Origin: Methanocaldococcus vulcanius M7
GTDB taxonomy: Archaea > AGJL01 > Methanococci > Methanococcales > Methanocaldococcaceae
Length of the DNA stretch: 64,000 bases
Reading direction: 5' to 3'
Assembly: GCF_000024625.1 (NCBI RefSeq)
Contig: NC_013407.1
Coordinates: forward strand, 496,001 to 560,000
The notes below the pieces were generated by a model. It was not told the DNA's origin. It saw only the letters and a list, made by a program, of their open reading frames with translations, and made no database searches. Positions 2,385 to 62,026 of this stretch are shown one piece after another (the first letter of the stretch is position 1; each line of letters opens with the position of its first letter). A program made the position numbers and the translations under genes.

Positions 2385-3860
2385 ATGAAAGTTAGAATAT
2401 TTGACACTACTTTGAGAGATGGAGAACAAACTCCCGGTGTTTCACTAACTCCAAGTGATAAACTGGAAATTGCAAGAAAATTGGATGAGTTGGGTGTCGA
2501 TGTAATAGAAGCAGGTTCTGCAATAACATCTAAGGGGGAAAGAGAAGGAATAAAGTTAATAACAAAAGAAGGTTTAAATGCAGAGATATGCTCATTCGTG
2601 AGAGCTTTACCGATTGATATTGACGCAGCAGTTGAGTGCGATGTAGATAGTGTCCATCTTGTAGTGCCAACATCTCCTATACATATAAAGTATAAACTTA
2701 GAAAAACAGAAGATGAGGTTTTAGAGACAGCTTTAAAGGCCGTTGAATATGCAAAAGATCACGGATTGATTGTAGAGTTGTCTGCAGAAGACGCTACAAG
2801 AAGTGATGTCAATTTTTTAATAAAGTTGTTCAATGAAGGAAAAAAGGTTGGGGCAGATAGGGTTTGTGTATGTGATACTGTTGGAATCTTAACTCCTCAA
2901 AAAAGTCAGGAATTATTTAAAAAGATAAGTGAAAATGTTGATCTGCCTGTCTCAGTTCACTGTCATAATGATTTTGGAATGGCCACAGCGAATACTTGCT
3001 CAGCAGTTTTAGGAGGGGCAGTTCAGTGTCACGTAACGATCAATGGAGTTGGAGAAAGGGCAGGAAACGCCTCTTTAGAAGAGGTTGTAAGTGCATTAAC
3101 AGTACTTTACAACTACAAAACCAACGTAAAAATGGAAAAGTTATATGAAGTTTCGAGATTGGTTTCAAGATTGATGAAACTTCCTGTGCCTCCAAACAAA
3201 GCGATCGTTGGGGATAATGCATTTGCTCACGAGGCAGGAATACACGTTGATGGATTAATAAAAAATACTGAGACGTATGAGCCAATAAAACCTGAGATGG
3301 TCGGAAATAGGAGGAGAATAATATTGGGAAAACATTCTGGAAGAAAAGCATTAAAGTATAAACTTGATCTGATGGGTATAAAAGTTAATGAAGATCAGTT
3401 AAATAAAATATATGAAAAAATAAAAGAGTTTGGAGATCTTGGAAAATACATTTCAGATGCAGATCTCCTGGCAATAATTAGGGAGGTTTTAGGTAAAGAA
3501 ATAGAGGAAAAGATAAAATTAGATGAGTTAACGGTGGTTTCTGGAAACAAGATCACTCCGATTGCTTCTGTTAAGCTTCACTATAAAGGAGAGGATATAA
3601 CGTTAATAGAAACTGCCTATGGAGTTGGGCCTGTCGATGCGGCAATAAATGCAGTAAGAAAGGCAATAAGTGGTGTTGCAGATGTTAAATTGGAGGAATA
3701 TAGGGTAGAGGCAATTGGAGGAGGAACAGATGCTTTAATTGAGGTAAGGGTAAAGTTAAGAAAGGGAATGGATATTGTAGAGGTTAAAAAAGCAGATGCA
3801 GATATAATAAGAGCATCTGTTGATGCAGTTATGGAAGGAATAAATTTACTTCTCAGTTAA
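2385..3860 (+). CDS. cimA: (R)-citramalate synthase CimA
   Basis: 491 residues. It condenses pyruvate and acetyl-CoA to (R)-citramalate, the threonine-independent entry to isoleucine and 2-oxobutyrate. The catalytic TIM barrel shows FDTTLRDGEQTPG at residues 6-18, the metal ligands in HCHNDFGMA at 192-200 and GVGERAGNAS at 221-230. The C-terminal third (about 390-491) is the leucine-feedback (LeuA dimer) domain with GVGPVDAAINAVRKA. The family also contains isopropylmalate and homocitrate synthases. I chose CimA because the whole protein matches my memory of MJ1392, also 491 residues. The start is supported by GAGGGATCATT. Confidence 0.93.
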   Translation: MKVRIFDTTLRDGEQTPGVSLTPSDKLEIARKLDELGVDVIEAGSAITSKGEREGIKLITKEGLNAEICSFVRALPIDIDAAVECDVDSVHLVVPTSPIHIKYKLRKTEDEVLETALKAVEYAKDHGLIVELSAEDATRSDVNFLIKLFNEGKKVGADRVCVCDTVGILTPQKSQELFKKISENVDLPVSVHCHNDFGMATANTCSAVLGGAVQCHVTINGVGERAGNASLEEVVSALTVLYNYKTNVKMEKLYEVSRLVSRLMKLPVPPNKAIVGDNAFAHEAGIHVDGLIKNTETYEPIKPEMVGNRRRIILGKHSGRKALKYKLDLMGIKVNEDQLNKIYEKIKEFGDLGKYISDADLLAIIREVLGKEIEEKIKLDELTVVSGNKITPIASVKLHYKGEDITLIETAYGVGPVDAAINAVRKAISGVADVKLEEYRVEAIGGGTDALIEVRVKLRKGMDIVEVKKADADIIRASVDAVMEGINLLLS

Positions 3861-3944
3861 AAATTAAAGATTAAAAATAACATTAAAAAATAAAAAATAG
3901 AGAGAGATTAATGTTTAAATCCTAATAGTTTCTTAGATTATGGT

Positions 3945-5345
<1,401 letters not shown>

Positions 5346-8532: not shown

Positions 8533-9923
8533 TGAAGAACGTAAATGTTGGGTTGTTTGGGCATATAGATCATGGAAAAACAGAACTGGCAAAACAATTA
8601 ACAGAGATAATCTCAACATCTGCATTAGATAAACCAAAAGAATCAAAAAAAAGAGGAATAACTATTGATTTAGGTTTTTCTTCATTTGTCCTTGACAACT
8701 ATCGAATCACCTTAGTTGATGCTCCTGGACATTCTGAGTTGATAAGAACAGCAATTGGGGCAGGAAATATTATAGATGTTGCCTTGCTTGTTGTAGATGC
8801 AAAAGAAGGGCCAAAAACACAAACAGGAGAACATCTTTTGGTGTTAGATCTATTAAAAATTCCTACAATAGTGGTTTTGAATAAGATAGATATTGCAAGT
8901 AGTGAGGAGATAAAAAGAACAGAAGAACTGATGAAGCAGATATTGAACTCAACTTTGTACTTAAAAAACTCTAAAATTGTAAAAATTTCAGCAAAGACAG
9001 GAGAAGGGATAGATCATTTGAAAAAAGAACTTAAACAGTTATTAGATACTATTAATATAAAGAGGGAGATTGATTGTTATTTAAAGATGCCAATAGATCA
9101 TGCATTTAAGATAAAGGGTGTCGGAACAGTTATAACTGGAACAATCCATAAAGGAACCGTAAAAGTTGGAGATCTACTAAAAATTTTACCAATAAATCAA
9201 GAAGTTAAAGTTAAGAGTATACAATGTTTTAAACAGGATGTAGAAAGAGCGTATGCAGGAGATAGAGTAGGAATGTCGTTAATGGGTGTAGAGCCAGAGA
9301 GTTTGTTTAGAGGATGCGTATTGACATCAGAAGATACAAAATTAAAAGTGGTTGATAAATTTATTGCAAAAATAAAGATTTTAGACCTTTTTAAATATGA
9401 TCTAACCCCTAAGATGAAAGTTCATGTAAATGTTGGGCTATTAACAGTTCCTGCTACAATAATTCCATATACGTTGGAAAAAATAAATGATAAGGAAGAA
9501 CCTATTGTGCTGAATGAAGTTAAAAAAGGAATGTCTTGCTACTGTATGTTTAAGTTAGAGGAGAAGGTTGTAGTCGAAGAAGGGGATAAACTTCTGATCA
9601 TGAGATTAGATCTACCTCCAACGACTTTGAGAATTTGTGGTTTTGGAAGAATAGTTGATTTTAAAAACGTAGATCTTAAAAAAATTGTAATTAAAGAAGG
9701 AAAAGTTGTTAAAAAGAAAGATAGAGTATACATAGAGGGACTTGCCACATCAAAAATATCGGGAGAAAAGCTTATTGGAGAGAAAGTTTATATCCCAGAG
9801 AAGGACATTTGGGGAGTTATAAAGGGAACATTTGGAACTAAGGGTTATTTGTTGGTAGATTTCGAGGATGATGTAGAGGGGGGAGAAAAGGCAGTGTTAA
9901 AGAGAGTTAGAAAGTGGGGTTGA
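8529..9923 (+). CDS. selB: Selenocysteine-specific elongation factor SelB
   Basis: 464 residues. The GTPase domain has GHIDHGKT (11-18), DAPGHSELI, NKID and SAKTGEG, followed by EF-Tu-like domains 2 and 3 and a short domain 4. It brings Sec-tRNA to UGA codons in selenoproteins, which hydrogenotrophic methanogens use in hydrogenases and heterodisulfide reductase. It closely follows M. jannaschii MJ0495 in memory. It overlaps rnp2 and starts ATGATG, either of which could be used. The presence of selB implies UGA recoding in this genome; no selenoprotein gene was seen in the window. Confidence 0.93.
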   Translation: MMKNVNVGLFGHIDHGKTELAKQLTEIISTSALDKPKESKKRGITIDLGFSSFVLDNYRITLVDAPGHSELIRTAIGAGNIIDVALLVVDAKEGPKTQTGEHLLVLDLLKIPTIVVLNKIDIASSEEIKRTEELMKQILNSTLYLKNSKIVKISAKTGEGIDHLKKELKQLLDTINIKREIDCYLKMPIDHAFKIKGVGTVITGTIHKGTVKVGDLLKILPINQEVKVKSIQCFKQDVERAYAGDRVGMSLMGVEPESLFRGCVLTSEDTKLKVVDKFIAKIKILDLFKYDLTPKMKVHVNVGLLTVPATIIPYTLEKINDKEEPIVLNEVKKGMSCYCMFKLEEKVVVEEGDKLLIMRLDLPPTTLRICGFGRIVDFKNVDLKKIVIKEGKVVKKKDRVYIEGLATSKISGEKLIGEKVYIPEKDIWGVIKGTFGTKGYLLVDFEDDVEGGEKAVLKRVRKWG

Positions 9924-10016
9924 GATCAGCAGATACTAAAACCGTATCTTTTATATACCCTACATAACAAAAATACTCTTTACACACACGAATTTTAATT
10001 GTTTTTGGTGAGAGTT

Positions 10017-10460
10017 GTGTATGTAGTGAACCTGCCATATAAAAAGTTGGGTGTGGAGTTTAACGAAAAACTTGTAATTTTAAAAATGAAGTGTAAAGAC
10101 ATTGAGGAAGATATTAGATTAAATTTTGAATCAGCGGCATTATTAAAAATACTTATGGAACAAAGTGCGATAATCGCTGAAAAAATAAACAAGGATTTTA
10201 AAAAAGATGGAATAAAGATTAGTGAGATCTACGATGTGGGAACTGTCTTTGGTGTGGATGGGAGAGTTTCTATTGGTGTATTACCTGCTGATGAGAGTAG
10301 AGTCGCATCGGTTCTTGTTGGATTTCACAAAAATGACAAGCACATCTCTGTTGTAGTGAAACCGAAAAAAATAGCTCTACTTAGTATGATAATTTCAAAA
10401 ATCATTATTGAAAATTTAAATTTAAACCAGAAAAAGCAGAAGTTTAAGATTCAGATGTAA
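10017..10460 (+). CDS. Conserved hypothetical (MJ0496-like)
   Basis: 147 residues from GTG 10017, which has GGTGA at 10007-10011 at normal spacing; an upstream TTG at 9999 has no such site. It is a soluble alpha/beta protein without cysteines, with [26 protein letters not shown] as an amphipathic helix. I recognise no catalytic motif. It lies just after selB, as I recall the M. jannaschii homolog does. Function unknown. Confidence 0.7.
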
Positions 10461-10639
10461 TTATTGTCTAATTATATCTAATTATATAAATGTCTAATTA
10501 TAAATTTTAACTTTTAAAAATTATGAACATATCACGCTCCTTTTATTTTCTTTTTTCTCTTTTTATATTCTCTTTTATACTTTAAATCTACTTTTCCTTT
10601 TTCATTTATTTTCGTTATATATTTCTGTCCCAATTAATT

Positions 10640-31832: not shown

Positions 31833-31920
31833 GCGGGGGTGGCCCAGCCTGGTACGGCGCGGGACTGCTAATCCCGTTGGGCATAGCCCAACTCGGGTTC
31901 AAATCCCGACCCCCGCGCCA
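31833..31920 (+). tRNA. tRNA-Ser (anticodon GCT), host of provirus integration
   Basis: GCGGGGG at the 5' end pairs with CCCCCGC near the 3' end. The anticodon loop CTGCTAA carries GCT. A long variable arm (TTGGGCATAGCCCAA) marks a class II serine tRNA. T arm CGGGTTCAAATCCCG. CCA is encoded at 31918-31920. Decodes AGC/AGU. The last 54 bases before CCA are repeated at 61973-62026, so the present 3' part was supplied by the provirus and the gene remains complete. Confidence 0.97.
31864..31917 (+). repeat. attL core (54-base direct repeat, copy 1)
   Basis: Bases from the anticodon loop to the discriminator of tRNA-Ser, identical over 54 bases to 61973-62026 and in the same orientation. The distance between copies is 30,109 bases. 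With an intact integrase gene ending 158 bases before the second copy, this is a standard tRNA-targeting attachment site. Confidence 0.95.
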
Positions 31921-42539: not shown

Positions 42540-44732
42540 TCACCACATTGTTAATTGCTGTTTCAGAACCTTCTGGACAGCCAGGGCGATGTCTTCAGGG
42601 CTCGCATCGGTTTTAGAAACGTGTATATTGACGTTGATATTTGGGCTTGAGTTAGTAATATTCTGTATTGTTGTAACTTGCTGGCTTATGGGAATGCTTT
42701 TTGGATTTATCGCCATTGTTGTCGTTATTTTTCCAACTGCAGCTTGAATTCTTGATTTATGCTTTTCAATTCCTTCCGCAATTGTTTCGATGAATCCTGG
42801 ACCTACTTTATCTAATCTTGATAGAGGTCCCTCTTTTGCTGGTGAGTGAGGTAAATGGTCATCAATCCAGCTGAGTAAATCTAAGATTTTTTGCTTAATT
42901 TCATTAATTTTACTGGTGAATCCTCTGATAAATTCAGTAATGAGCCCAACTCCAGCTTGATAAAATCTACTTGGCAGTGATTTTAAGAAATTAATTATCT
43001 CATTCATTATATTCTTGAGTTTGTCTCTAATTCCAAATAGATTCTTATCCCATGCTAATTTTATAAGCCCCCACGGTCCAAGCAGGGAGTATTTCAGAGC
43101 TTCAAGAATCTGTGTTTTATGAGTCTTAATTTGGTTAATTAACCACTTAATTCCATTAATAAATAGTGTCAGCTTCTGCTTTACTGCACTAATAGCTGAA
43201 TTTACAATATCTCTTATACCAAACCAATTGTTTTTCCAAGCTAAGTATAGAACTGCCAGCACTGCAACTATTGCCAATATTGGTGCTGTTATAGGTGCGA
43301 TTGCCGCTATAAATGCACCTATTGCTCCTATGGCTGCTGACACTGCCCCAGCAATTGCTCCAAATGAAATCCCCAAAGCCCCAATGACTGAAACTATTTC
43401 CAATGTTGAAGATATCGCCATTGCAAATGCTCCAGCCAGTAATATTATAGGCCCCACAATTGCAGCAACTGCAGCAGCTAATCCTACAAATGCTCCGATT
43501 GCATGTTTTATTGGTGTTGGAAGCTTGTTAAAAATATCTAATATAGGTTTTAGAGCCATTAGAATGATTTTACCGACAGTAGCCATTCCTTGTGCAACTG
43601 AAACTGCAAATTCTTTTATTGCCGGCATTGCTTTAATCAGCATGTCTAAGAATTCTTTGATATTGCCTTTAGAGTCCTTAAAAATCTCTAATTTTATATT
43701 TTCAATTGCTGATTTCAACTGCTGTATCTTATACTCAACAGTGTTCGTCATTTCTCTGTATTTTTGTTCAGCCACTCCTGCAGAATTTTCCAATATCCTA
43801 ACGTATTCCTTATAAGCATCTCCTCCTTGTTGCATTAATTGTAGTAATGCTGAACCTGCCTCAGTTCCGAATATTTTAAATATCTCAGTTGCTGACAACC
43901 CTTTTTTCTTAATATCATCTAAAATATCTCCTAAATTCCTAAGTTTTCCTGATGCATCCATTACTTTAATTCCATACTGCTCTAATGCTTTCTGAACCTT
44001 AGTATCTGCCAACTCAGTTAATACTTCTCTCAATCCTGTCCCTGCATCTTCTCCTCTTCTACCTGCCTTATAAAACATCATCAAAGCAGCTACTGTATCT
44101 TCCAAACTTAACCCCAATGCCCTTGCTGCTGGTGCCGCATATTTCAAGGAGTATTGTAATTTTTCAACAGTCGCTGGAGAGTTGGCACACGCTTGAACAA
44201 AAACATCAACGGCTCTACCGGATTCTTGTGCTGACATTCCAAATGAGTTCAATGTTGAAACTACTAAATCTGTAGCTGTTGATAAGTCGGTTTGTGCTAC
44301 CGTAGCCAGATGTAGAACATTGGGAATTGCTGCAATTATTTCATTTGTTTTCATCCCAGCACTTGCCATGAGATACATTGCTTCAGCAGCTTCTGAAGCA
44401 GTGTATGCCGTCTGTGCCCCCATTTGCATAGCTGTTTGTGTCAATTTCTCAAATTCTTCAGCCGTAGCTCCAGTTATTGCTTTAATCTTATACATCTGCT
44501 GTTCAAATTCTATACCTGTTTGAATTGCTGAATACATTCCTGCAACAAATGGAGCTGAAAATGCTGTAACTCCAGCTCCAACCATTGCCATACTCTTTCC
44601 TACCCTATCAAAAACATCAGCCATGTTTTTAACTCTATTTTCCAATCTATCAATGTTTTGTTGTATTTTTTGAAATACTGCCGTTGCTTTATCCACCGCT
44701 GTAATTATGATTTGCAGATTAGTGTCAGCCAT
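42540..44732 (-). CDS. Tail tape measure protein
   Basis: 730 residues. TP901-type core at about 60-330: QTGIEFEQQMYKIKAITGATAEEFEKL, QTAYTASEAAEAMYLMASAG, AAPAARALGLSLEDTVAALMMFYKAG and EDAGTGLREVLTEL are classic tape-measure sequence. Hydrophobic stretches at about 410-510 (AFVGLAAAVAAIVGPIILLAG and following) probably cross the host membrane during DNA entry. The C-terminus includes DLLSWIDDHLPHSPAKEGPLS, also typical. It sets tail length. Confidence 0.93.
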   Translation of the reverse strand: MADTNLQIIITAVDKATAVFQKIQQNIDRLENRVKNMADVFDRVGKSMAMVGAGVTAFSAPFVAGMYSAIQTGIEFEQQMYKIKAITGATAEEFEKLTQTAMQMGAQTAYTASEAAEAMYLMASAGMKTNEIIAAIPNVLHLATVAQTDLSTATDLVVSTLNSFGMSAQESGRAVDVFVQACANSPATVEKLQYSLKYAAPAARALGLSLEDTVAALMMFYKAGRRGEDAGTGLREVLTELADTKVQKALEQYGIKVMDASGKLRNLGDILDDIKKKGLSATEIFKIFGTEAGSALLQLMQQGGDAYKEYVRILENSAGVAEQKYREMTNTVEYKIQQLKSAIENIKLEIFKDSKGNIKEFLDMLIKAMPAIKEFAVSVAQGMATVGKIILMALKPILDIFNKLPTPIKHAIGAFVGLAAAVAAIVGPIILLAGAFAMAISSTLEIVSVIGALGISFGAIAGAVSAAIGAIGAFIAAIAPITAPILAIVAVLAVLYLAWKNNWFGIRDIVNSAISAVKQKLTLFINGIKWLINQIKTHKTQILEALKYSLLGPWGLIKLAWDKNLFGIRDKLKNIMNEIINFLKSLPSRFYQAGVGLITEFIRGFTSKINEIKQKILDLLSWIDDHLPHSPAKEGPLSRLDKVGPGFIETIAEGIEKHKSRIQAAVGKITTTMAINPKSIPISQQVTTIQNITNSSPNINVNIHVSKTDASPEDIALAVQKVLKQQLTMW

Positions 44733-51732: not shown

Positions 51733-52017
51733 TTAGGCAGTTATCTCTGCAACTGATACTCCATAAATATCTTCAATCAACGCAGCTAAATAGCCATTAT
51801 CTTCTATAGCTTCGATTATATCCTCCTTCTTTATGGTCTTCCTTCCTGATTTTTGTGCGTTCATTCTTGCTTTAACTAAAATCTCAATCAAAATCTTTCG
51901 CAAATAGTTGTTAAGTTCCTCAACTGCCTCATTAGAAATCCTGAAATCATAACCGCTTTTAGGATAGTTATCCACAATCTCCTTCATCGTCCTTTTTAAC
52001 GTAGCCTTAGGGATCAT
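51733..52017 (-). CDS. Virus-encoded archaeal histone, MJ1647-like
   Basis: 94 residues. Histone fold at about 2-72: IPKATLKRTMKEIVDN, FRISNEAVEELNNYLRKILIEILVKARMNAQKSGRKTIKKEDIIEAIED, with the loop-2 GRKTIK motif that contacts DNA. A C-terminal extension (about 73-94: GYLAALIEDIYGVSVAEITA) follows, as in M. jannaschii MJ1647, whose tetramers bridge DNA. Standard archaeal histones lack that tail. It may compact viral DNA or modify host chromatin in infection (inference). Confidence 0.88.
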   Translation of the reverse strand: MIPKATLKRTMKEIVDNYPKSGYDFRISNEAVEELNNYLRKILIEILVKARMNAQKSGRKTIKKEDIIEAIEDNGYLAALIEDIYGVSVAEITA

Positions 52018-52986: not shown

Positions 52987-53187
52987 ATGAGGCACAAAAA
53001 TAAAGGATTTAAAATTAAAAGATATAAAAAAATTGGGAAATATAGAAGAAAATACTATATAAGCAGGGAGGAATTTGAAAAAATAGAAGAGATTTTAGAT
53101 ATTTGTTTAGTTAAGGCAATGGAAGAAACAAAAGACGATGAATTATTAACTTACGATGAAATAAAAGGATTATTGGGAGATAAATGA
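52987..53187 (+). CDS. RelB-like antitoxin candidate
   Basis: 66 residues, strongly basic N-terminus (MRHKNKGFKIKRYKKIGKYR) and an acidic C-terminal half with REEFEKIEEILDICLVKAMEETKDDELLTYDEIKGLLG. GAGGTAGGACAAA precedes the ATG. It overlaps the RelE-like gene by four bases (ATGA), the usual antitoxin-toxin coupling. No direct RelB motif, so the role rests on context. Confidence 0.68.
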   Translation: MRHKNKGFKIKRYKKIGKYRRKYYISREEFEKIEEILDICLVKAMEETKDDELLTYDEIKGLLGDK

Positions 53188-53450
53188 AAGTGTTGTTTGC
53201 CAAAACATTTGCTAAGGATTTAAAGAATGTTCCAAGGCATGTAAGAAAAAGGATAAAGTTGATAATTGAAAACTTTCAAAATGCTAAATCGTTAAATGAT
53301 TTAAACTTAGACATTAAGAAAATAAAGGGTTATCAAAATTATTACAGAATTAGAGTTGGAAATTATAGAGTAGGTATTGAAATTAATGGAGATACAATTA
53401 TTTTTAGAAGGGTTTTGCATAGGAAAAACATATACGATTATTTTCCATAA
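53184..53450 (+). CDS. RelE/ParE-family toxin
   Basis: 88 residues: MKVLFAKTFAKDLKNVPRHV, RKRIKLIIENFQNAKSLND, IKKIKGYQNYYRIRVGNYRVGIEINGDTIIFRRVLHRKNIYDYFP. The IKGY...YRIRVGNYRV..E...D.I...RV.HR..IY..FP pattern is diagnostic of RelE. RelE cleaves mRNA on the ribosome. Here it probably stabilises the provirus. Small size is normal. Confidence 0.9.
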   Translation: MKVLFAKTFAKDLKNVPRHVRKRIKLIIENFQNAKSLNDLNLDIKKIKGYQNYYRIRVGNYRVGIEINGDTIIFRRVLHRKNIYDYFP

Positions 53451-53669: not shown

Positions 53670-54443
53670 TTATTCTACTAAAACACTTATCTCATCTTCC
53701 CTTCTACTCCATAAAAACGGCTCAATATCATACTTATATAAAGCGTTAATCATGTCTTCAGAAGGCTTTCTCTCAGTGTCATTAATTATTGCTATTCTCT
53801 TAACCTCTTCATCCCTAATTGTATTTTTCACATCCTCAAAGGCAAATATTGTTGAATTGATAATTCTTTTTTCAGGTCTGCTAATTATACCAACTATTTT
53901 TTTAGTTTTAATTTCTCCATAATTCAATATTTCCAAAAATCTATGTTTTAAACCACTTCTACCACCGACATCTCTTTTCCTATATGGAATTTTCTTTTTC
54001 TCAAAATACATCTCAACATCTTCCCAGAATATTGACCTAACCTTATGTTGAGCCAATAAATGAAACCCATCAACTGCAAGAATTGCTTGAATCATATTAT
54101 TGAAATATAATGGAAACTCATCCTTATTGGCAATTATAACTATTTCCCTACCTTCAAGATGAGCCCCAAAACCATTTAATACTGTTTTCAATTCATATAA
54201 TCTTTTTTCAGTATTAATATCAACTCCTGCCACCTCAAGATTATCTAAAGTATTGCCATCATCAGTAAGTATAATCGAATCTCCCACAACCTTCATATAA
54301 AATTGAATTAAATCATTAGATTTATCAATAAACGGTGTTGTTATTTCAACCCACTCCCCCCCATTTTCCAATATGATGTTTTCCCTTAGCCAATTAAAGT
54401 ATTCATCAATAAATTTTTCAATAAGTTTAATAGAATTTGACAT
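53670..54443 (-). CDS. DUF1828/DUF1829-type protein
   Basis: 257 residues from ATG 54443 (GAGGTGTGGATTT upstream). The N-terminal part has WVEITTPFIDKSNDLIQFYMKVVGDSIILTDDGNTLDNLEVAG, the DUF1828 signature. The C-terminal part (about 150-257, with KRDVGGRSGLKHRFLEILN and SRPEKRIINSTIFAFEDVKNT) fits DUF1829. Found scattered in bacteria, archaea and mobile elements next to DUF6978-type genes; I know of no established activity. Overlaps its upstream partner by 17 bases. Confidence 0.75.
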   Translation of the reverse strand: MSNSIKLIEKFIDEYFNWLRENIILENGGEWVEITTPFIDKSNDLIQFYMKVVGDSIILTDDGNTLDNLEVAGVDINTEKRLYELKTVLNGFGAHLEGREIVIIANKDEFPLYFNNMIQAILAVDGFHLLAQHKVRSIFWEDVEMYFEKKKIPYRKRDVGGRSGLKHRFLEILNYGEIKTKKIVGIISRPEKRIINSTIFAFEDVKNTIRDEEVKRIAIINDTERKPSEDMINALYKYDIEPFLWSRREDEISVLVE

Positions 54444-54945
54444 AAATCCACACCTCATTTACTGGAAACTTAATATTAGGGGCTTTTACAACTTTACAAT
54501 AATCAAGGAACTCCTGCGTAATTTGAATAATGTTTTTATCTGAGATATTTAACTTTTCAATCTCCTCAATAGGAACTGCCCATTTATCATCATAGCCCTC
54601 TACATAAATATGTAAATGAGGGCCTTTAATAGTCTTTCCAACATAACGACTCAATAAATTTATAAGGGAGTTGTGAGAATCATATAACGGGGGAAGTTTA
54701 GGAGGATTTCTATGTGGAGGACCATAATGTAAGTCCAACCTCCTTAAGATATATCGCTTCCTTGCAATGTTTGTATAGGATATTTTAATCTTATTTGATT
54801 TACTATACTTTCTATAAATATCTATATAGTAACTTTCAGTCCCATCCTTAGATTTAAGATTTATCCTGGATTTCCCACCGTTATTAGGGAATGGCACATC
54901 ATTGTCCAATGAAATCTTTGGTATATTAAATAGTTGCTCTGCCAT
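54427..54945 (-). CDS. DUF6978-type partner of the DUF1828 gene
   Basis: 172 residues: RINLKSKDGTESYYIDIYRK, RKRYILRRLDLHYGPPHRNPPKLPPL, GPHLHIYVEGYDDKWAVPIEE and NPSVNEVWIYV-like end (FPVNEVWIYVKFY). LDLHYGPPHRNP and HLHIY.EGY..KWA.P are the blocks I associate with DUF6978. Its tight coupling with the DUF1828 gene suggests a two-component toxin-antitoxin or defence module; this is inference. Confidence 0.68.
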   Translation of the reverse strand: MAEQLFNIPKISLDNDVPFPNNGGKSRINLKSKDGTESYYIDIYRKYSKSNKIKISYTNIARKRYILRRLDLHYGPPHRNPPKLPPLYDSHNSLINLLSRYVGKTIKGPHLHIYVEGYDDKWAVPIEEIEKLNISDKNIIQITQEFLDYCKVVKAPNIKFPVNEVWIYVKFY

Positions 54946-54990: not shown

Positions 54991-55497
54991 CTATGAAACA
55001 GTGAAAGCAATATAAAGAATAATATAAAGCATAACTGCAACAAGAAAATACTCAAAAACTTTTTTATGCCTTATAATTAGTTTTTTAGCATTTTTATTAA
55101 TCTTTTTAAGGTTGAATTGTTTGGATTTTGACTTATTAGATTTCTTTTTATCCTTATCTTTTGGTGAGCCAAATTTCTTACAAACATAAATTTCATACTC
55201 TTTAATATTTTTATTCCATAATATTGAAACACCTATACCGATACGGTTATATTTGTTGCTGAGTATATGTTTTCTATGGTTAGGATTTCTTAACCACTCC
55301 TTAACAATCCTCTTAGCGACAGTTGTATGAGTCTCTCCCTTTACGGCATAATGAACTGTGCAGTTCTTCCTCTTTAATGCTTCCCTATTGGCTGACTTCG
55401 TTAGTGACTTACTCAGCTTTAATGGCTTTAACTTCCTACGCTTTCTTTCTTTATTTATCACCTCATGTAATCTTTTTCTTAACCGTTGCGGTTCCAT
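54991..55497 (-). CDS. CAP/SCP-domain protein with C-terminal membrane anchor
   Basis: 168 residues from ATG 55497 (GGTGGGGGTC upstream). CAP domain at about 1-115: RKRLHEVINKERKRRKLKPLKLSKSLTKSANREALKRKNC, then VKEWLRNPNHRKHILSNKYNRIGIGVSI, which matches W..S..HR.NIL...IGIGV. A Lys/Ser-rich linker and a final hydrophobic helix (about 146-166) follow. No signal peptide, so the CAP domain likely faces the cytoplasm. The family has no single activity. Confidence 0.78.
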   Translation of the reverse strand: MEPQRLRKRLHEVINKERKRRKLKPLKLSKSLTKSANREALKRKNCTVHYAVKGETHTTVAKRIVKEWLRNPNHRKHILSNKYNRIGIGVSILWNKNIKEYEIYVCKKFGSPKDKDKKKSNKSKSKQFNLKKINKNAKKLIIRHKKVFEYFLVAVMLYIILYIAFTVS

Positions 55498-55588
55498 GAC
55501 CCCCACCAATTTTTGAAATAAAAAACTCAATAGATAAGCTTTATTTTTGTTACTTAACTACAATTTTTATACAACACCCCATAACTGG

Positions 55589-56203: not shown

Positions 56204-56539
56204 TTATCCAACAATTACCGAAACCTTATCATTTTCGTTTATTGAAAATTTAATGGTTTTATTCCCAATTTTTTCAATGAAATCATCTAATTTATATAAA
56301 ATCAGTGCATTTTTACCTTTTTGTGTTATTTTATAGCATGATTTTGGCAACATATATTCTGTCTCTTCTGTCCATTTTTCTACAAGACCTTCTTCAATGA
56401 GCTCAGATAATAATCTACTTAATGTACCTTGATGTAGTTTAGTCTCTTTTTGAAGCTGACTAAATGTTAATACCCCCTTATTATTAAGTATTTCTAATAT
56501 TTCTCTAACATATTTTTTTGATAAAGTTTTAATTATCAT
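56204..56539 (-). CDS. Winged-helix (MarR-like) viral regulator
   Basis: 111 residues. wHTH at about 8-75: KKYVREILEILNNKGVLTFSQLQKETKLHQGTLSRLLSELIEEGLVEKW, then the wing with YMLPKSCYKITQKGKNAL. Divergent from the gene at 56725 and next to operator P2, it is the best candidate for the repressor of P1, P2 and P3, or of its own inverted repeat (56580-56603). GGAGTAGA-like sequence precedes the ATG. Confidence 0.8.
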   Translation of the reverse strand: MIIKTLSKKYVREILEILNNKGVLTFSQLQKETKLHQGTLSRLLSELIEEGLVEKWTEETEYMLPKSCYKITQKGKNALILYKLDDFIEKIGNKTIKFSINENDKVSVIVG

Positions 56540-56660: not shown

Positions 56661-56705
56661 TTTTATATACTACCACAATTATAAAACAAGTCATAGAAAT
56701 ATGAC
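56661..56705 (+). promoter_or_regulatory. Early promoter-operator P2 (rightward)
   Basis: TATA box TTTTATATAC at 56661-56670, then CCACAATTATAAAACAAG, then the operator GTCATAGAAATATGAC at 56690-56705 over the expected start site. 56673-56705 is identical to P1 read in reverse. An ATG lies inside the operator at 56701, but the gene's ribosome-binding site GGTGATACT points to ATG 56725. Confidence 0.8.
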
Positions 56706-56724
56706 TCCTCATAAGGGTGATACT

Positions 56725-57144
56725 ATGACTTACGAACACATGGTTAAATCAATTTTAACCTTACTGGCTACATTTGAACGAAAAAATAGAAGAGTTTTGC
56801 TACTATATGAGTATGTATTACAGCATAAAAATCTACCTACTGAAGCAATTCCAGTTATTTATTTTATTAAATATAATGATTGGTTTGAAGCATATAAAAA
56901 TTACTTAAAAAATAATTTAGACCACATTAACGACTTAGAATATAATGCTTTTTTGATATTAATAGGGGATACTCCTCACATAATGAATTTAGAATTATAC
57001 GAGTTCTTTTTAGAAATTTCCAATTTTTCAGAGGAGCAAAAAATGAGGATAATATATAAAATTACCAAAAAAATTAAAGAGGAGGAAAAGTATGTCAGAA
57101 GAAATTCGCAATATCAAAGAACTCCTGAAAAATCCTGTATTTAA
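56725..57144 (+). CDS. Viral early protein of unknown function, 139 residues
   Basis: 139 residues from ATG 56725 (GGTGATACT upstream). MTYEHMVKSILTLLATFERK, then helices with LPTEAIPVIYFIKYNDWFEAYKNYLKNNLDHIND. Wholly helical. It overlaps the AAA+ replication gene by 53 bases in another frame and is the first gene of its unit; a replication accessory role is possible. Confidence 0.62.
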   Translation: MTYEHMVKSILTLLATFERKNRRVLLLYEYVLQHKNLPTEAIPVIYFIKYNDWFEAYKNYLKNNLDHINDLEYNAFLILIGDTPHIMNLELYEFFLEISNFSEEQKMRIIYKITKKIKEEEKYVRRNSQYQRTPEKSCI

Positions 57145-59479
57145 AAAATTTTTTGATGAATTAAGAAATAAACATGCAAAGTCAATAAAAGATTTAGTTG
57201 AAATTATCCCATCTATAGAAACCCTGAAACTCCATCACGAAATAGTATTATCATCTGAAGAAAATATCGATAAATATTTTAGTGCTTTAAAGTTTTACTT
57301 TCCAGAGAGGATAAAGCGATATTTTTTTAACAAATATCAGATATTTATTGATTTTGACAACAGATCTAAATGGCATGATTTCGTAGACATAAACACACTA
57401 TTAAAAGTATATGAATTGAATTATATACAAAGTATAACAAAAGAAGGAAAAACAATTAAAGATAGTTTTGAGGAATTTTTTACAGAGTCAATAGTATTAT
57501 TATTAAAAAATACACATACACATGGAATAAGAGAATTAGAAGATACTCCAATAGTTATCAAATTTAAAAATAAATTATATGGAGATGTAAATACCTGGAA
57601 AATTATGAAAGTTGAAAGTGAGGATGACTCTTTAACTTACTATGTAAAACTTGATGATAATAATTTAATATATATGAATATTACTGGAACTCAAAAGAAA
57701 AAAAACATTGTTACTCCTGTCAACATGGACATTCCAATATTCCAACTACATAAATGTGAAAAAATCTATGACCCTATAGATAATAAAACAGTATTCTATA
57801 TTTCAGGATGGAAACTACAGGGTAATGAAGAAAAATATGTTGAAATAATAGATATTAATGATATAGGACAATTACTAAGTTCCCCAATCATAAACCTCTG
57901 TAAAAAATACAAAGAATTATACATGGAACTAAAAAATGTCCTAAAACAGATAATATCTCAAAAAGCTGAGGACTGTATAAAAACTGAAGGTTTCGCAGTA
58001 ATTACCCATAATGGACATCTAACTATTCCAAAAAGATACAAAATGCCAGATACAATATTTTGTGAAGATTTAGAGCATTTGGATAGAATATTAACAAAAG
58101 ATACAGATGAGTTAATTAAAGAGGATTTGATAAAATATCTTGCATTATTTAATAAGGTCCACAACTTGACTACAATAGGTGCATTTATAGCCAGCCATTT
58201 AATACATGTAATTAAACCAAAAATTGTTTCTCCTGTATTTATATGGGGAGATAGTGGCGTTGGAAAAACAAGTATTGCAATGTTACTTAGCTATGTAAAC
58301 CCCGCAAGTTCCCAAACTACAAGCCACCAGTTAATGCAGAAAATTTCTGGGTTCAGATGCGGTATAGTTTATTTTGATGAAAAAATAGAGTATTCATCAC
58401 AATTAACGCAGGATTTAAAGTATTCTGCCACAAACTGTGGATACATACATAGAATTAGCCATAACAAAAAATATGTTGCCAATGTCATGTTTTTGGCAAC
58501 ATCAAACCCCCAACCAAAATTTAAGACAAGGGGTCTTGAAGATTTAAAAGGGCTTTTGAGAAGAGCAGTATTTTTAAAAGTCATAAAAGAGCTTGATGAA
58601 ATAAAAGATGAAAAAATTGATGAAGCTTATGAGATATTGGACATATATAGAAATGATTTAATTAAAATACTGCTTGATGAGCTAACATCATTCTCAGAAA
58701 AGGAAATTAAAGACATATACAGACAATTTACAGTTAGGGAGAAGTATAAACTACTTCTAACTGGAATTGAACTCTGGAAGGCAATATGTGAAAAATACAA
58801 TATTAAATTAAATATAAATTATGATGAACTTATTAGGAGATTTGAGGATAGTGAAAAAGAGATATTAGGATTTGGAGATATAAGCTTATTAGAATTAATA
58901 AAAGGAAGAATTATAGAAGATGCAATACACACTGCAAGAGTTTTAGATGTAGAAGGTAAAGATATTGTAGTTAGAGTTGCAGATAAAAACGTTGTGAAAT
59001 CTCTACTTACATCAAAAGGATATGCAATATACTTAAAAGATAAGAAACTTTATGCTATACTTTCTGTTAGAGGGTTTAAAAATCTAAAAGATAAAATTAA
59101 GGAACTACCCGATTTAGAAACTAAGAGAGACATTGAAAGTTACCTCGGACAGAATGGCATTGAGTTTGAGTATAAAAATACGAGGGCATATGGAATATCC
59201 ATAAAAGGATTCTTTATAGAAATTAAAGACATTGAAATTGACATTGAGGATGATGAAGAAAATAACATTTCAAACTCAATACTTAAGAGCAGACAAAAGC
59301 AGAAAAACCTTGAGGAGAAAATTATAAAGACAATAGAAGAAGCTGGAGAAATTAGTTTCGATGAATTAAAAGAAAAAATAGGGCTTGATGAAGAAACATT
59401 AGAGAAATTAATCAAAAGGTTAATAAAACTTGGAGATATATTGGAGGTAAGACCTAATACTTATAAAATATTAGTATAA
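57092..59479 (+). CDS. AAA+ ATPase, probable viral replication initiator/helicase
   Basis: 795 residues. N-terminal part (1-370) has no recognised motif. ATPase: Walker A IWGDSGVGKTS at 384-394, Walker B GIVYFDEK at 424-431, sensor 1 VMFLATSNP at 465-473, and R490-R491 as candidate arginine finger. The C-terminus (about 735-795: LEEKIIKTIEEAGEISFDELKEKIGLDEETLEKLIKRL) is a winged helix, as in DNA-binding helicase loaders and MCM-like proteins. Overlaps the previous gene. An iteron array begins 116 bases after its end, which fits an initiator binding its own origin. Confidence 0.78.
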   Translation: MSEEIRNIKELLKNPVFKKFFDELRNKHAKSIKDLVEIIPSIETLKLHHEIVLSSEENIDKYFSALKFYFPERIKRYFFNKYQIFIDFDNRSKWHDFVDINTLLKVYELNYIQSITKEGKTIKDSFEEFFTESIVLLLKNTHTHGIRELEDTPIVIKFKNKLYGDVNTWKIMKVESEDDSLTYYVKLDDNNLIYMNITGTQKKKNIVTPVNMDIPIFQLHKCEKIYDPIDNKTVFYISGWKLQGNEEKYVEIIDINDIGQLLSSPIINLCKKYKELYMELKNVLKQIISQKAEDCIKTEGFAVITHNGHLTIPKRYKMPDTIFCEDLEHLDRILTKDTDELIKEDLIKYLALFNKVHNLTTIGAFIASHLIHVIKPKIVSPVFIWGDSGVGKTSIAMLLSYVNPASSQTTSHQLMQKISGFRCGIVYFDEKIEYSSQLTQDLKYSATNCGYIHRISHNKKYVANVMFLATSNPQPKFKTRGLEDLKGLLRRAVFLKVIKELDEIKDEKIDEAYEILDIYRNDLIKILLDELTSFSEKEIKDIYRQFTVREKYKLLLTGIELWKAICEKYNIKLNINYDELIRRFEDSEKEILGFGDISLLELIKGRIIEDAIHTARVLDVEGKDIVVRVADKNVVKSLLTSKGYAIYLKDKKLYAILSVRGFKNLKDKIKELPDLETKRDIESYLGQNGIEFEYKNTRAYGISIKGFFIEIKDIEIDIEDDEENNISNSILKSRQKQKNLEEKIIKTIEEAGEISFDELKEKIGLDEETLEKLIKRLIKLGDILEVRPNTYKILV

Positions 59480-59594
59480 AGTTATTTTATTATTTTTTTG
59501 AAATCTCAAATTTTCACCATCTTCAAACCCCAAACTCTTTTCATTATCCCTAATGTTGTAGGTATAATTATAGGACTAGAACCTACTCCACGTC

Positions 59595-59624
59595 AGCGAC
59601 CATAGCGACCATATCAGCGACCAT
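59595..59624 (+). repeat. Iteron cluster 1, three direct AGCGACCAT
   Basis: AGCGACCAT at 59595-59603, 59604-59612 and 59616-59624, the first two abutting. This is the most regular part of the candidate origin. Confidence 0.8.
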
Positions 59625-59767
59625 GAATATTACGGTTTTTTCAGTTAGATTTTTGATAAATTTTCTTATTTTTTTAAAAATAACAATAAAATATTATAGT
59701 CGCTGATAGATATAACAATCTGACTTTATCTTATTACAATAAGAACTACAGCGACTTTTTGAAAACC

Positions 59768-59854
59768 AGCGACCACAGCGACCACTTGGATATAACTATT
59801 ATGCGGTCAGGGTGTGGAAAAAATTTGAAGTCATTGAGTGGTCGCTCGGTCGCT
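59768..59854. repeat. Iteron cluster 2, two direct and two inverted copies
   Basis: AGCGACCA at 59768 and 59777 face inverted copies TGGTCGCT (59839-59846) and GGTCGCT (59848-59854), about 55 bases apart. The symmetric layout is common in plasmid and viral origins. Confidence 0.75.
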
Positions 59855-60054
59855 AAAAATTAAAAAGGATGTTAAGTTGAGTATATTGTATATAATCAAT
59901 AATATGTTTAGATTGTTAGCGACTCAGTTTTTATGTCATTATTATTCCAAATTTGACAGATGATTTGATTCATTTCTTGAAGATAAGAATATATTCATAG
60001 TAGCCGATACGGTTGCTGATAGAAATTTCACAGTTGCTCTTTAGTATAGAAAGC

Positions 60055-60098
60055 TTTATATATTTCCGCAATTATATTATATGTCATAAAAATATGAG
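60055..60098 (+). promoter_or_regulatory. Early promoter-operator P3 (rightward)
   Basis: TATA TTTATATAT at 60055-60063, then CCGCAATTATATTATAT, then GTCATAAAAATATGAG at 60083-60098. Same spacing as P1 and P2, with a few changes, including one in the operator arm, so it may be more weakly bound. Followed by TGTCAT and GGTGATACA, as in P2, before ATG 60118. Drives the integrase unit. Confidence 0.75.
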
Positions 60099-60117
60099 AT
60101 GTCATTTTGGTGATACA

Positions 60118-60309
60118 ATGGTGAGAGTAAAAAAGAAGGCATGGAGAAAACCAAGAGATGTGGTTATAGGCTTTGTTGCGGTTTGTAAGGCAAACGGTAA
60201 TACTGTAATTCCTAAACCAACTTTACCTCCTGATTATGTCGGCAAAAAAGTTATAATCATTCCGATTGAAGATGAAGATGAAGAGTTTGATGTGGTTGAT
60301 GATAATTGA
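60118..60309 (+). CDS. DUF2080/AbrB-like small protein
   Basis: 63 residues from ATG 60118 (GGTGATACA upstream; the frame is open further up but runs through the operator). VRVKKKAWRKPRDVVIGFVAVC, then KANGNTVIPKPTLPPDYVGKKVIIIPIEDEDEEFD. The GNT.IPKP....VGKKV.I pattern resembles DUF2080 and swapped-hairpin AbrB-type DNA-binding proteins. Could be a regulator of the integrase unit. Confidence 0.6.
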   Translation: MVRVKKKAWRKPRDVVIGFVAVCKANGNTVIPKPTLPPDYVGKKVIIIPIEDEDEEFDVVDDN

Positions 60310-60438: not shown

Positions 60439-60615
60439 ATGAGGTATAAGTCAGAGGTTGATGCTTTGGCAGAGCATGTTGAAGAGGTTATTGAGATTTT
60501 AATATCTCATATGGATGAAGAGGATTTGATTAATTTGCATGCTATAGGCGTAGGGATATGTCAAAGAGTTGCTGAAGAGTTTAAAGAAAGATTAAAGTTG
60601 AGGGAGATTTTATGA
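60439..60615 (+). CDS. Small helical viral protein, 58 residues
   Basis: MRYKSEVDALAEHVEEVIEI, LISHMDEEDLINLHAIGVGICQRVAEEFKERLKLREIL. ATG 60439 has GGGTGATTCTC upstream; the frame from 60430 starts with a GTG in that site. Overlaps the next gene by four bases. All-helical; function unknown. Confidence 0.58.
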   Translation: MRYKSEVDALAEHVEEVIEILISHMDEEDLINLHAIGVGICQRVAEEFKERLKLREIL

Positions 60616-60863
60616 GGAGGGCAACATTCTATTTATGTAGGAATATTGATGGTAGGAAACTTAGGTATCTTTTGCATAGGTTGGAAAACGTGGAAAATAT
60701 AGATATTGAGACATTAAGAAGAGCAATTGAGGCGGAGAAGAAATACAAAAGAGCAATAACGCTCACAGAGGAAGAGGAGGCAATTATACAGAAGTTAGGT
60801 AAGAGTGCAAATTTACTTTTGAATTGTGAGTTGGTGAAGTTGGATGAGGGAGAAAGAGCTTAA
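60612..60863 (+). CDS. Small helical viral protein, 83 residues
   Basis: MRRATFYLCRNIDGRKLRYL, LHRLENVENIDIETLRRAIEAEKKYKRAITLTEEEEAIIQKLGKSANLLLNCELVKLDEGERA. GAGGGAGATTTT precedes the ATG. It overlaps the integrase start by 20 bases. An excisionase role is possible by position (small, basic, before the integrase), but unproven. Confidence 0.55.
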   Translation: MRRATFYLCRNIDGRKLRYLLHRLENVENIDIETLRRAIEAEKKYKRAITLTEEEEAIIQKLGKSANLLLNCELVKLDEGERA

Positions 60864-61815
60864 AAATCTCTTACTTTTAAAACCTAAGAGGGAAGAGATT
60901 AAAGAGACGGATGATATTAAAAAATGGCTTGATAAGTTTAAAGAAGAGCGTTTATTTGATGGTAGGAAGGAAAGCACTATAAAAAATGATTTAACACGGT
61001 TGAAAGTTTTCTTGGACTTTTGTTATAATAGGTTAGGAAAAAGCCCTGATGAAATGGAGACATCTGATTTCGTTAAGTTCTTTAACTACTTAGAGAAAGA
61101 GAGGAAGTTATCTAAAAATACTCAGAAGAGGTATTATGACTTATTGAAAGTGTTTTATAAGTTGATGAGGTTAAAGAACTTTAATGAGTTTGCTGAGGAG
61201 AGTAAGGAAAGAAAACGGTTTGCTTGCATAGAAATAAGACATTATGATGCTGTTGATGCTGAGATTTTGAATGAGATTTTGAGGAAGATTGTTGAGAGTA
61301 ATAGCAGAACAAGGATGAGAGATGCATTGATTGTAAGATTGCTATGGGATACTGGAGCGAGAGTATCTGAAATATTAAATCTAAGATACAAGGATGTTGA
61401 TTTCAATGAAGGAATAATTAGAATCACTAATACAAAAAATAGGGAAGAGAGAAAGGTGGTCTGTGCATCTGAAACCTTAGAGCTGTTAAGGCATTATTGC
61501 CAGTTCAACATAAGGCAAGGACCGGAGGATTACCTATTCCAAAATAATAGGGGAGGGAGGGTTAGAAAGGATTGGATTAGTGAGGTTTTTAGAAAAGCAG
61601 TTGATGAGCTTAAAAAGGAGGGTAAGATTCCGCCAAATAAGAGGATTGTTATTCATTCTTTGAGGCATGGTAGGGCTGTTGATTTACTTGAAAAAGGATT
61701 ACCTCTTGATGTTGTTAAAGAATATCTTGGCCATAGGAGTTTGGAGGTTACTTTGTTTTATTCTCATTCTAAGGAGAGAACTGAGAAGTTATTAAAAATT
61801 ATTAGGAAGTTGTAG
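60844..61815 (+). CDS. int: Tyrosine recombinase (integrase)
   Basis: 323 residues. N-terminal SAM-like core-binding domain (about 24-115). Catalytic domain with R173 (DTGARVSEILNLRYKDV), K in the beta-hairpin near 198-204, H271xxR274 (VIHSLRHGRAVDLL), H297 (YLGHRSLEVTLFY) and nucleophile Y306. Complete and undivided, so integration did not split it, unlike the SSV-type integrases. It ends 158 bases before attR. Confidence 0.95.
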   Translation: MREKELKNLLLLKPKREEIKETDDIKKWLDKFKEERLFDGRKESTIKNDLTRLKVFLDFCYNRLGKSPDEMETSDFVKFFNYLEKERKLSKNTQKRYYDLLKVFYKLMRLKNFNEFAEESKERKRFACIEIRHYDAVDAEILNEILRKIVESNSRTRMRDALIVRLLWDTGARVSEILNLRYKDVDFNEGIIRITNTKNREERKVVCASETLELLRHYCQFNIRQGPEDYLFQNNRGGRVRKDWISEVFRKAVDELKKEGKIPPNKRIVIHSLRHGRAVDLLEKGLPLDVVKEYLGHRSLEVTLFYSHSKERTEKLLKIIRKL

Positions 61816-61972: not shown

Positions 61973-62026
61973 ACTGCTAATCCCGTTGGGCATAGCCCAA
62001 CTCGGGTTCAAATCCCGACCCCCGCG
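61973..62026 (+). repeat. attR core (54-base direct repeat, copy 2)
   Basis: The 3' two-thirds of tRNA-Ser, identical to 31864-31917. It lacks the 5' acceptor and D arm, so it is not a tRNA gene. The following bases are TCA instead of CCA. This is the original host 3' end displaced by the provirus. Confidence 0.95.

Follow-up and report, generated by a model that had tools for sequence, protein, structure and literature searches.

A candidate iteron-type replication origin beside a gene for a putative SF3-like initiator in a head-tailed provirus of Methanocaldococcus vulcanius

Where would the DNA of an excised head-tailed provirus of Methanocaldococcus vulcanius M7 begin to replicate, and which protein would start the process? 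The question is raised by a group of short repeats situated between a gene for an AAA+ protein (P0001) and a short operon that starts at 60118 and encodes a DUF2080 protein, a DUF2540 protein and an integrase (Table 1; positions refer to the window, that is, the whole 64-kb stretch of DNA analysed here). A literature search found no paper combining the terms ‘iteron’ and ‘Methanocaldococcus’.

Table 1 Features of the provirus and of its repeat array, in window positions
Feature	Position	Strand	Remarks
Provirus, about 30.1 kb	31918–62026		Bounded by a 54-base direct repeat
54-base direct repeat	31864–31917 and 61973–62026		3′ part of the tRNA-Ser gene; attachment repeats
ArsR/MarR-type winged-helix regulator	56204–56539	−	Divergent to the initiator gene; MFTV1 has one at the same place
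Small ORF	56701–57144	+	Overlaps the initiator start from upstream; no family match
Candidate initiator P0001, 795 aa	57092–59479	+	SF3-like AAA+ core ~360–590; domain 600–712; winged helix 736–795
Iteron array, ten AGCGAC(C/T) copies	59595–59924	7 on +, 3 on −	Exact matches, both orientations
Left iteron cluster	59595–59622	+	Three direct copies (59595, 59604, 59616)
AT-rich spacer between copies 3 and 4	59623–59697		Candidate unwinding element (putative function)
Single inverted iteron	59698–59704	−	
Middle iteron cluster	59750–59783	+	Three direct copies (59750, 59768, 59777)
Inverted iteron pair	59840–59854	−	Copies at 59840 and 59848
Rightmost exact iteron	59918–59924	+	
Two one-mismatch copies (AGCAAC)	60012–60038	−	At 60012 and 60033; outside 59595–59924
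DUF2540 protein and tyrosine integrase	60612–61815	+	73% DNA identity to MFTV1

The provirus encodes a large terminase, a portal/head morphogenesis protein, a major head protein (a weak match), a tape measure protein and an integrase, and its terminase, head and tape measure genes show that a preliminary description of this DNA was right to call the element head-tailed. Its other genes include those for a histone-fold protein (51736–52017, − strand; Pfam CBFD_NFYB_HMF, E 3.8e-9), a RelB-like antitoxin and ParE-like toxin pair (52987–53450, + strand), a DUF1828/DUF1829 protein (53670–54458, − strand) that strongly matches phrog_5059, a phage family of unknown function, and a CAP-domain protein of the cysteine-rich secretory protein family with a C-terminal hydrophobic segment (54991–55530, − strand).

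The copies of the repeat follow one another in the order +++−+++−−+ with gaps of 9, 12, 83, 51, 18, 9, 64, 8 and 69. No ORF of at least 50 amino acids in the ORF list of the 64-kb window overlaps the array, which starts 116 positions past the last stop-codon base of the AAA+ gene (115 bases between). The preliminary description, which spoke of about ten copies in both orientations in gene-free DNA, beginning 116 bases after that gene, thus agrees with our counts; its 9-base spacing inside the clusters is not uniform, the actual values being 9, 12, 18, 9 and 8. Elsewhere in the window AGCGAC(C/T) occurs only once, at 44169, and no second cluster of it was found in the provirus by motif count or by a short-word scan. 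Dinucleotide shuffles of the whole window contained 2.96 copies on average and none of 100 reached 11, while in the non-coding interval 59480–60117 (638 bases) the commonest 7-mer occurs seven times, against a maximum of five for any 7-mer in 300 shuffles. Short, specific repeats are therefore present in non-coding DNA in excess of chance, and they enclose an AT-rich region, since the best 50-mer of the spacer between copies 3 and 4 is 47/50 A+T and ties for the maximum of the provirus. The two one-mismatch copies to the right of the array may be chance occurrences or decayed iterons. GC skew was discarded as an origin marker: its sign changes near 57 kb, but the direction of the genes flips there too.

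The protein encoded next to the repeats carries a Walker A motif (GDSGVGKT), a DE box, a motif-C-like FLATSNP and the stretch GLLRRAVFLK, with the key residues conserved in its relatives; Walker A, DE box, motif C with its conserved N and an arginine finger come in the order found in SF3. The AAA+ core has no Pfam match above cut-off. Aligned with a P4/pRN1 SF3 profile by hhalign, it gave an E value of 2.8e-4 at a probability of 41%, the alignment covering Walker A, motif C and the RR finger, whereas an MCM control profile aligned around Walker A only. These motifs and this one profile comparison, at its 41% probability, suggest that P0001 is an SF3-like AAA+ initiator helicase. In AlphaFold modelling, of the entire protein as well as of the core, the core has a pLDDT mostly below 50, with only 6–7 sequences to align, and residues ~600–712 and 736–795 are modelled with confidence. 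The latter segment (pLDDT about 77–90) matches winged helices with a Foldseek probability of 1.00 and so upholds the C-terminal winged helix that had been assigned to the protein beforehand. Its matches include the winged helix of Pyrococcus abyssi Rpa2 in the PriS–PriL and polymerase D complexes. It is most like the winged helices of host RPA2 and MCM, and is 35–43% identical to those of host ORFs of ~180–229 amino acids, one of which, judged by eye, combines an OB-fold with a winged helix in an RPA2-like manner. Given this resemblance to host RPA2, the winged helix may recruit host enzymes instead of reading the iterons; it is thus not certain to be the iteron reader, and residues ~600–712 are an alternative.

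A family-alignment search of 36 Methanococcales genomes detected full homologues of the AAA+ protein at only six places, the provirus included. The five others are an integrated element in genome G007 (73% identity to the provirus protein), pURB500 of Methanococcus maripaludis C5, pMETOK01 of Methanothermococcus okinawensis, pI of M. lauensis SG7 (NZ_LR792633.1) and an 11.4-kb plasmid-like contig in genome G013; weaker matches in other genomes comprise the C-terminal winged helix. Searches of genome contigs and of viral contigs found no relative beyond the provirus itself, and a search of phage records found none. As the G007 genome has no terminase related to that of the provirus, we do not call its element a related head-tailed provirus. 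The initiator gene of the G013 contig runs across the contig ends (positions 1 and 11376), and its frame suggests the loss of a single base where the ends meet, which makes a circular contig probable. The protein of pI has an N-terminal primase-like domain (phrog_695, E 1.1e-5); where this relative has its primase-like and linker regions, P0001 has a beta-rich domain of unknown function (residues ~153–254, window positions 57548–57853; pLDDT about 75–82 over residues 170–220).

Beside the homologue in each of the six elements, the short-word scan found a cluster in non-coding DNA (log10 P about −15 to −20), which ranks first in five of the six scanned sequences and second in G007, behind a separate TTGCAAA cluster. 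Each array consists of 9–10 exact copies over 325–341 bp (one outlying G007 copy left out) and is built on a private motif, namely AGCGACC in the provirus, AATGACA in G007, TCGAACA in pURB500, TGGAACA in pMETOK01, GGGAACC in pI and GGGAATG in G013; aligned on GA, the six have nnnGA(A/C) in common. The expectation that relatives would keep the array and vary its sequence was borne out, as each of the five other full homologues (5/5) is accompanied by an equally sized array of similar grammar with a motif of its own. It is by this comparison only that the initiator gene is seen to adjoin the repeats and the repeats to be initiator-specific, and motifs that differ from element to element speak against a reader that is a shared host factor. 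The six elements represent only three independent lineages; in a test with one element per lineage, gaps of 8–10 and 62–72 bp were over-represented relative to random placement (p about 0.005 and 0.002), a modest result because the gap classes were picked after looking at the data. In four elements (the provirus, pI, pMETOK01 and G013) the array contains the most AT-rich 50-mer, alone or in a tie; the arrays of pURB500 and G007 rank high in this respect without coming first. With intergenic DNA being AT-rich in general, we take the spacer as supporting and not as decisive.

Further repeat clusters were observed in these genomes. The TTGCAAA cluster of G007 (contig C1, ~1096.2–1096.8 kb) packs fourteen copies into 600 bp, close to ORFs of the DUF2080-like and winged-helix types, and a 12.2-kb plasmid-like contig of the same genome (C2), which carries an MCM gene, has nine copies of AGAGGTC in 600 bp (1301–1900), possibly an iteron-like array. 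The M. vulcanius M7 genome, of 1.76 Mb, has two small contigs, of which one measures 10,704 bp; one of the two displays a cluster of eight CTTTCCA copies (9901–10500) and the other a cluster of ten GTTAATA copies (3601–4200), which are candidate origin repeats of other replicons.

The positions of the arrays bear on what they do. A transcription regulator could bind the repeats as operators and control the 60118 operon or the initiator gene: the array is upstream of that operon, winged-helix regulators are encoded nearby and initiators often regulate promoters too. Ten copies over 330 bp are, however, a wide array for an operator. The pURB500 and G007 arrays are located between the 3′ ends of convergent genes and that of pI is ~1.5 kb ahead of the start of its only gene, so that the arrays have no promoter in common and an operator role is unlikely, with a chance that we put at slight. 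Repeat arrays also serve plasmid partition, and the many winged helices that residues 736–795 match in structure include, weakly, the centromere-binding AspA proteins of pNOB8. Yet the protein co-located with the array is AAA+ helicase-like, neither ParA nor ParB, partition is of little use to a tailed provirus, and pI, a complete circular plasmid of 5142 bp with one annotated gene (the homologue) and the array, has no partition gene; a centromere-like site read by a segregation protein is accordingly a very improbable reading. Packaging is hardly credible at all. The terminase of this head-tailed provirus could recognise the array as a pac site, but its genes lie 25 kb away from the repeats and comparable arrays accompany the homologues in plasmids without an annotated terminase. 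Both roles are weakened by pI, which has the array and neither kind of gene. The gene and array of pI evidently suffice for maintenance with help from the host, and here homologue and array are close to the whole replicon.

Closely related elements show how the repeats change. When pI is compared with the G013 plasmid, every one of the ten copies is in register and in the same orientation; GGGAA is identical in 10/10 copies, the next base is changed from C to T in 10/10 and the one after it from C to G in 9/10, while most of the other flanking columns are changed in 1–4/10. The right half of the provirus array has its layout in common with that of G007 (+18/19+9+64/62−8/9−69/70+), with AGCGAC replaced by AATGAC, and the left halves agree less exactly. 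If one trans-acting reader serves all the copies, they would be expected to change together while their places stay fixed, as they do here. Divergence along the protein was compared in the sister pairs with the aim of locating the DNA reader; the C-terminal ~100 residues are among the least alike in both pairs (23–73%), a result confounded by a linker.

Of the systems known from elsewhere, the alpha protein of phage P4 and the type I iterons of its crr and ori (GGTGAACA) likewise pair an SF3-type helicase initiator with repeats in both orientations. According to the P4 record, crr begins directly after the alpha gene and consists of 8-base repeats with pairs 9 bases apart. When run on P4, the short-word scan placed crr and ori above all other clusters. 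P4 differs in having two separated repeat regions, the crr repeats recurring at ori, and the likeness of its AAA+ core to that of the provirus protein is at profile level only. The core nnnGAACA of the P4 repeat is common to the pURB500 and pMETOK01 arrays, which may be coincidence. P4 alpha carries a primase domain of bacterial type (PMC4234260), and P0001 has no recognisable one, no family match to a primase domain having been found in it; we therefore claim likeness to P4 for the mechanism and not for membership.

It is P4 that suggests the most serious rival, in which the array would be an accessory site like crr, bound by the initiator and needed in cis, with replication beginning elsewhere. 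P4 crr is required in cis and directly follows the alpha gene, and the annotated ori is about 4.5 kb away. P4, however, has its second repeat set at ori, whereas the provirus has only the one stray copy outside the array, and the array itself holds one of the most AT-rich stretches of the provirus. We regard the accessory role as improbable, if less so than the operator, partition and packaging roles, and prefer the array as the origin.

The methanogen plasmids show that the combination is not confined to the provirus. In pURB500, a homologous protein of 22–26% identity is followed downstream by ten copies of TCGAACAT over 325 bp; it differs from the provirus in its motif and in being a plasmid, not a head-tailed virus. 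Working shuttle vectors have been built on it (PMC4902934). The 1997 description of pURB500 reportedly mentions potential iterons, and a paper of 2011 is said to have found that a vector is maintained by ORF1 in trans together with a DNA element; in that case, some of the pattern was already known for this plasmid. The design of an initiator encoded beside its iterons, to which the preliminary description had drawn attention, is not peculiar to the virus, as methanogen plasmids share it. A different solution is found in the archaeal plasmid pRN1 of Sulfolobus, whose ORF904 is an SF3 helicase with a C-terminal winged helix and whose origin, directly downstream, is a 100-base stem-loop that, as its authors state, contains no iterons (PMC4234260). 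They proposed that archaeal replication proteins of the primase–SF3–winged-helix type use a stem-loop and not iterons (PMC4234260). The protein family described here, in the provirus and the plasmids, departs from that proposal in that iterons are present. Single-strand folding of the provirus array is strong (z −4.5), and a pRN1-like stem-loop was nevertheless dropped because the inverted iteron copies are expected to give this value. MFTV1, the described head-tailed virus of the genus, whose host is Methanocaldococcus fervens, has a DUF2540–integrase region 73% identical in DNA to that of the provirus and, as in the provirus, a divergent ArsR-type regulator before its replication gene, but it encodes an MCM helicase in place of a P0001-type initiator, and the short-word scan found no cluster in MFTV1 comparable to the array. 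Replication modules thus seem to be exchanged among methanogen plasmids and tailed viruses.

Taking these observations together, we consider it highly probable, on evidence at the level of sequence, that the array is the iteron-type origin of the excised provirus, or the cis-acting core of that origin, and is bound by the adjacent SF3-like initiator. The support consists of (i) the array itself, (ii) its presence beside the gene in all six elements, (iii) the kept layout, (iv) the joint change of the copies and (v) the AT-rich spacer, and the private arrays of the relatives speak for the candidate origin put forward in the preliminary description. Against it count the position of the pMETOK01 array, which is upstream of its gene, not downstream, and the small number of independent lineages, three. 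The best explanation is a mechanism like that of P4 alpha and crr. The SF3-like AAA+ helicase encoded upstream would bind the ten copies, binding would place it for opening the AT-rich spacer between the copies, and host primase and polymerase would then be recruited to the opened origin. A more specific version, conceivable but rather doubtful, has residues ~600–712 of P0001 reading the iterons and the C-terminal winged helix drawing in the host primase and polymerase, so that the host enzymes would be used and the host initiator bypassed; the winged helix is proposed as the recruiter because its relative in RPA2 was solved with PriS–PriL and polymerase D in Pyrococcus.

With this locus, a head-tailed virus of hyperthermophilic methanogens has a candidate origin and a candidate initiator that are defined and can be tested. 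Methanocaldococcus is not known to have recognisable Orc1/Cdc6 initiators, which makes any initiator working there informative. The six natural initiator–repeat pairs have differing motifs and a common layout and, since pI and its sister in G013 are told apart by the same two positions throughout their ten copies, the set allows direct tests of how the specificity between initiator and repeat drifts. With one gene and about 330 bp, the small replicon may also serve as a vector backbone for hyperthermophilic methanogens.
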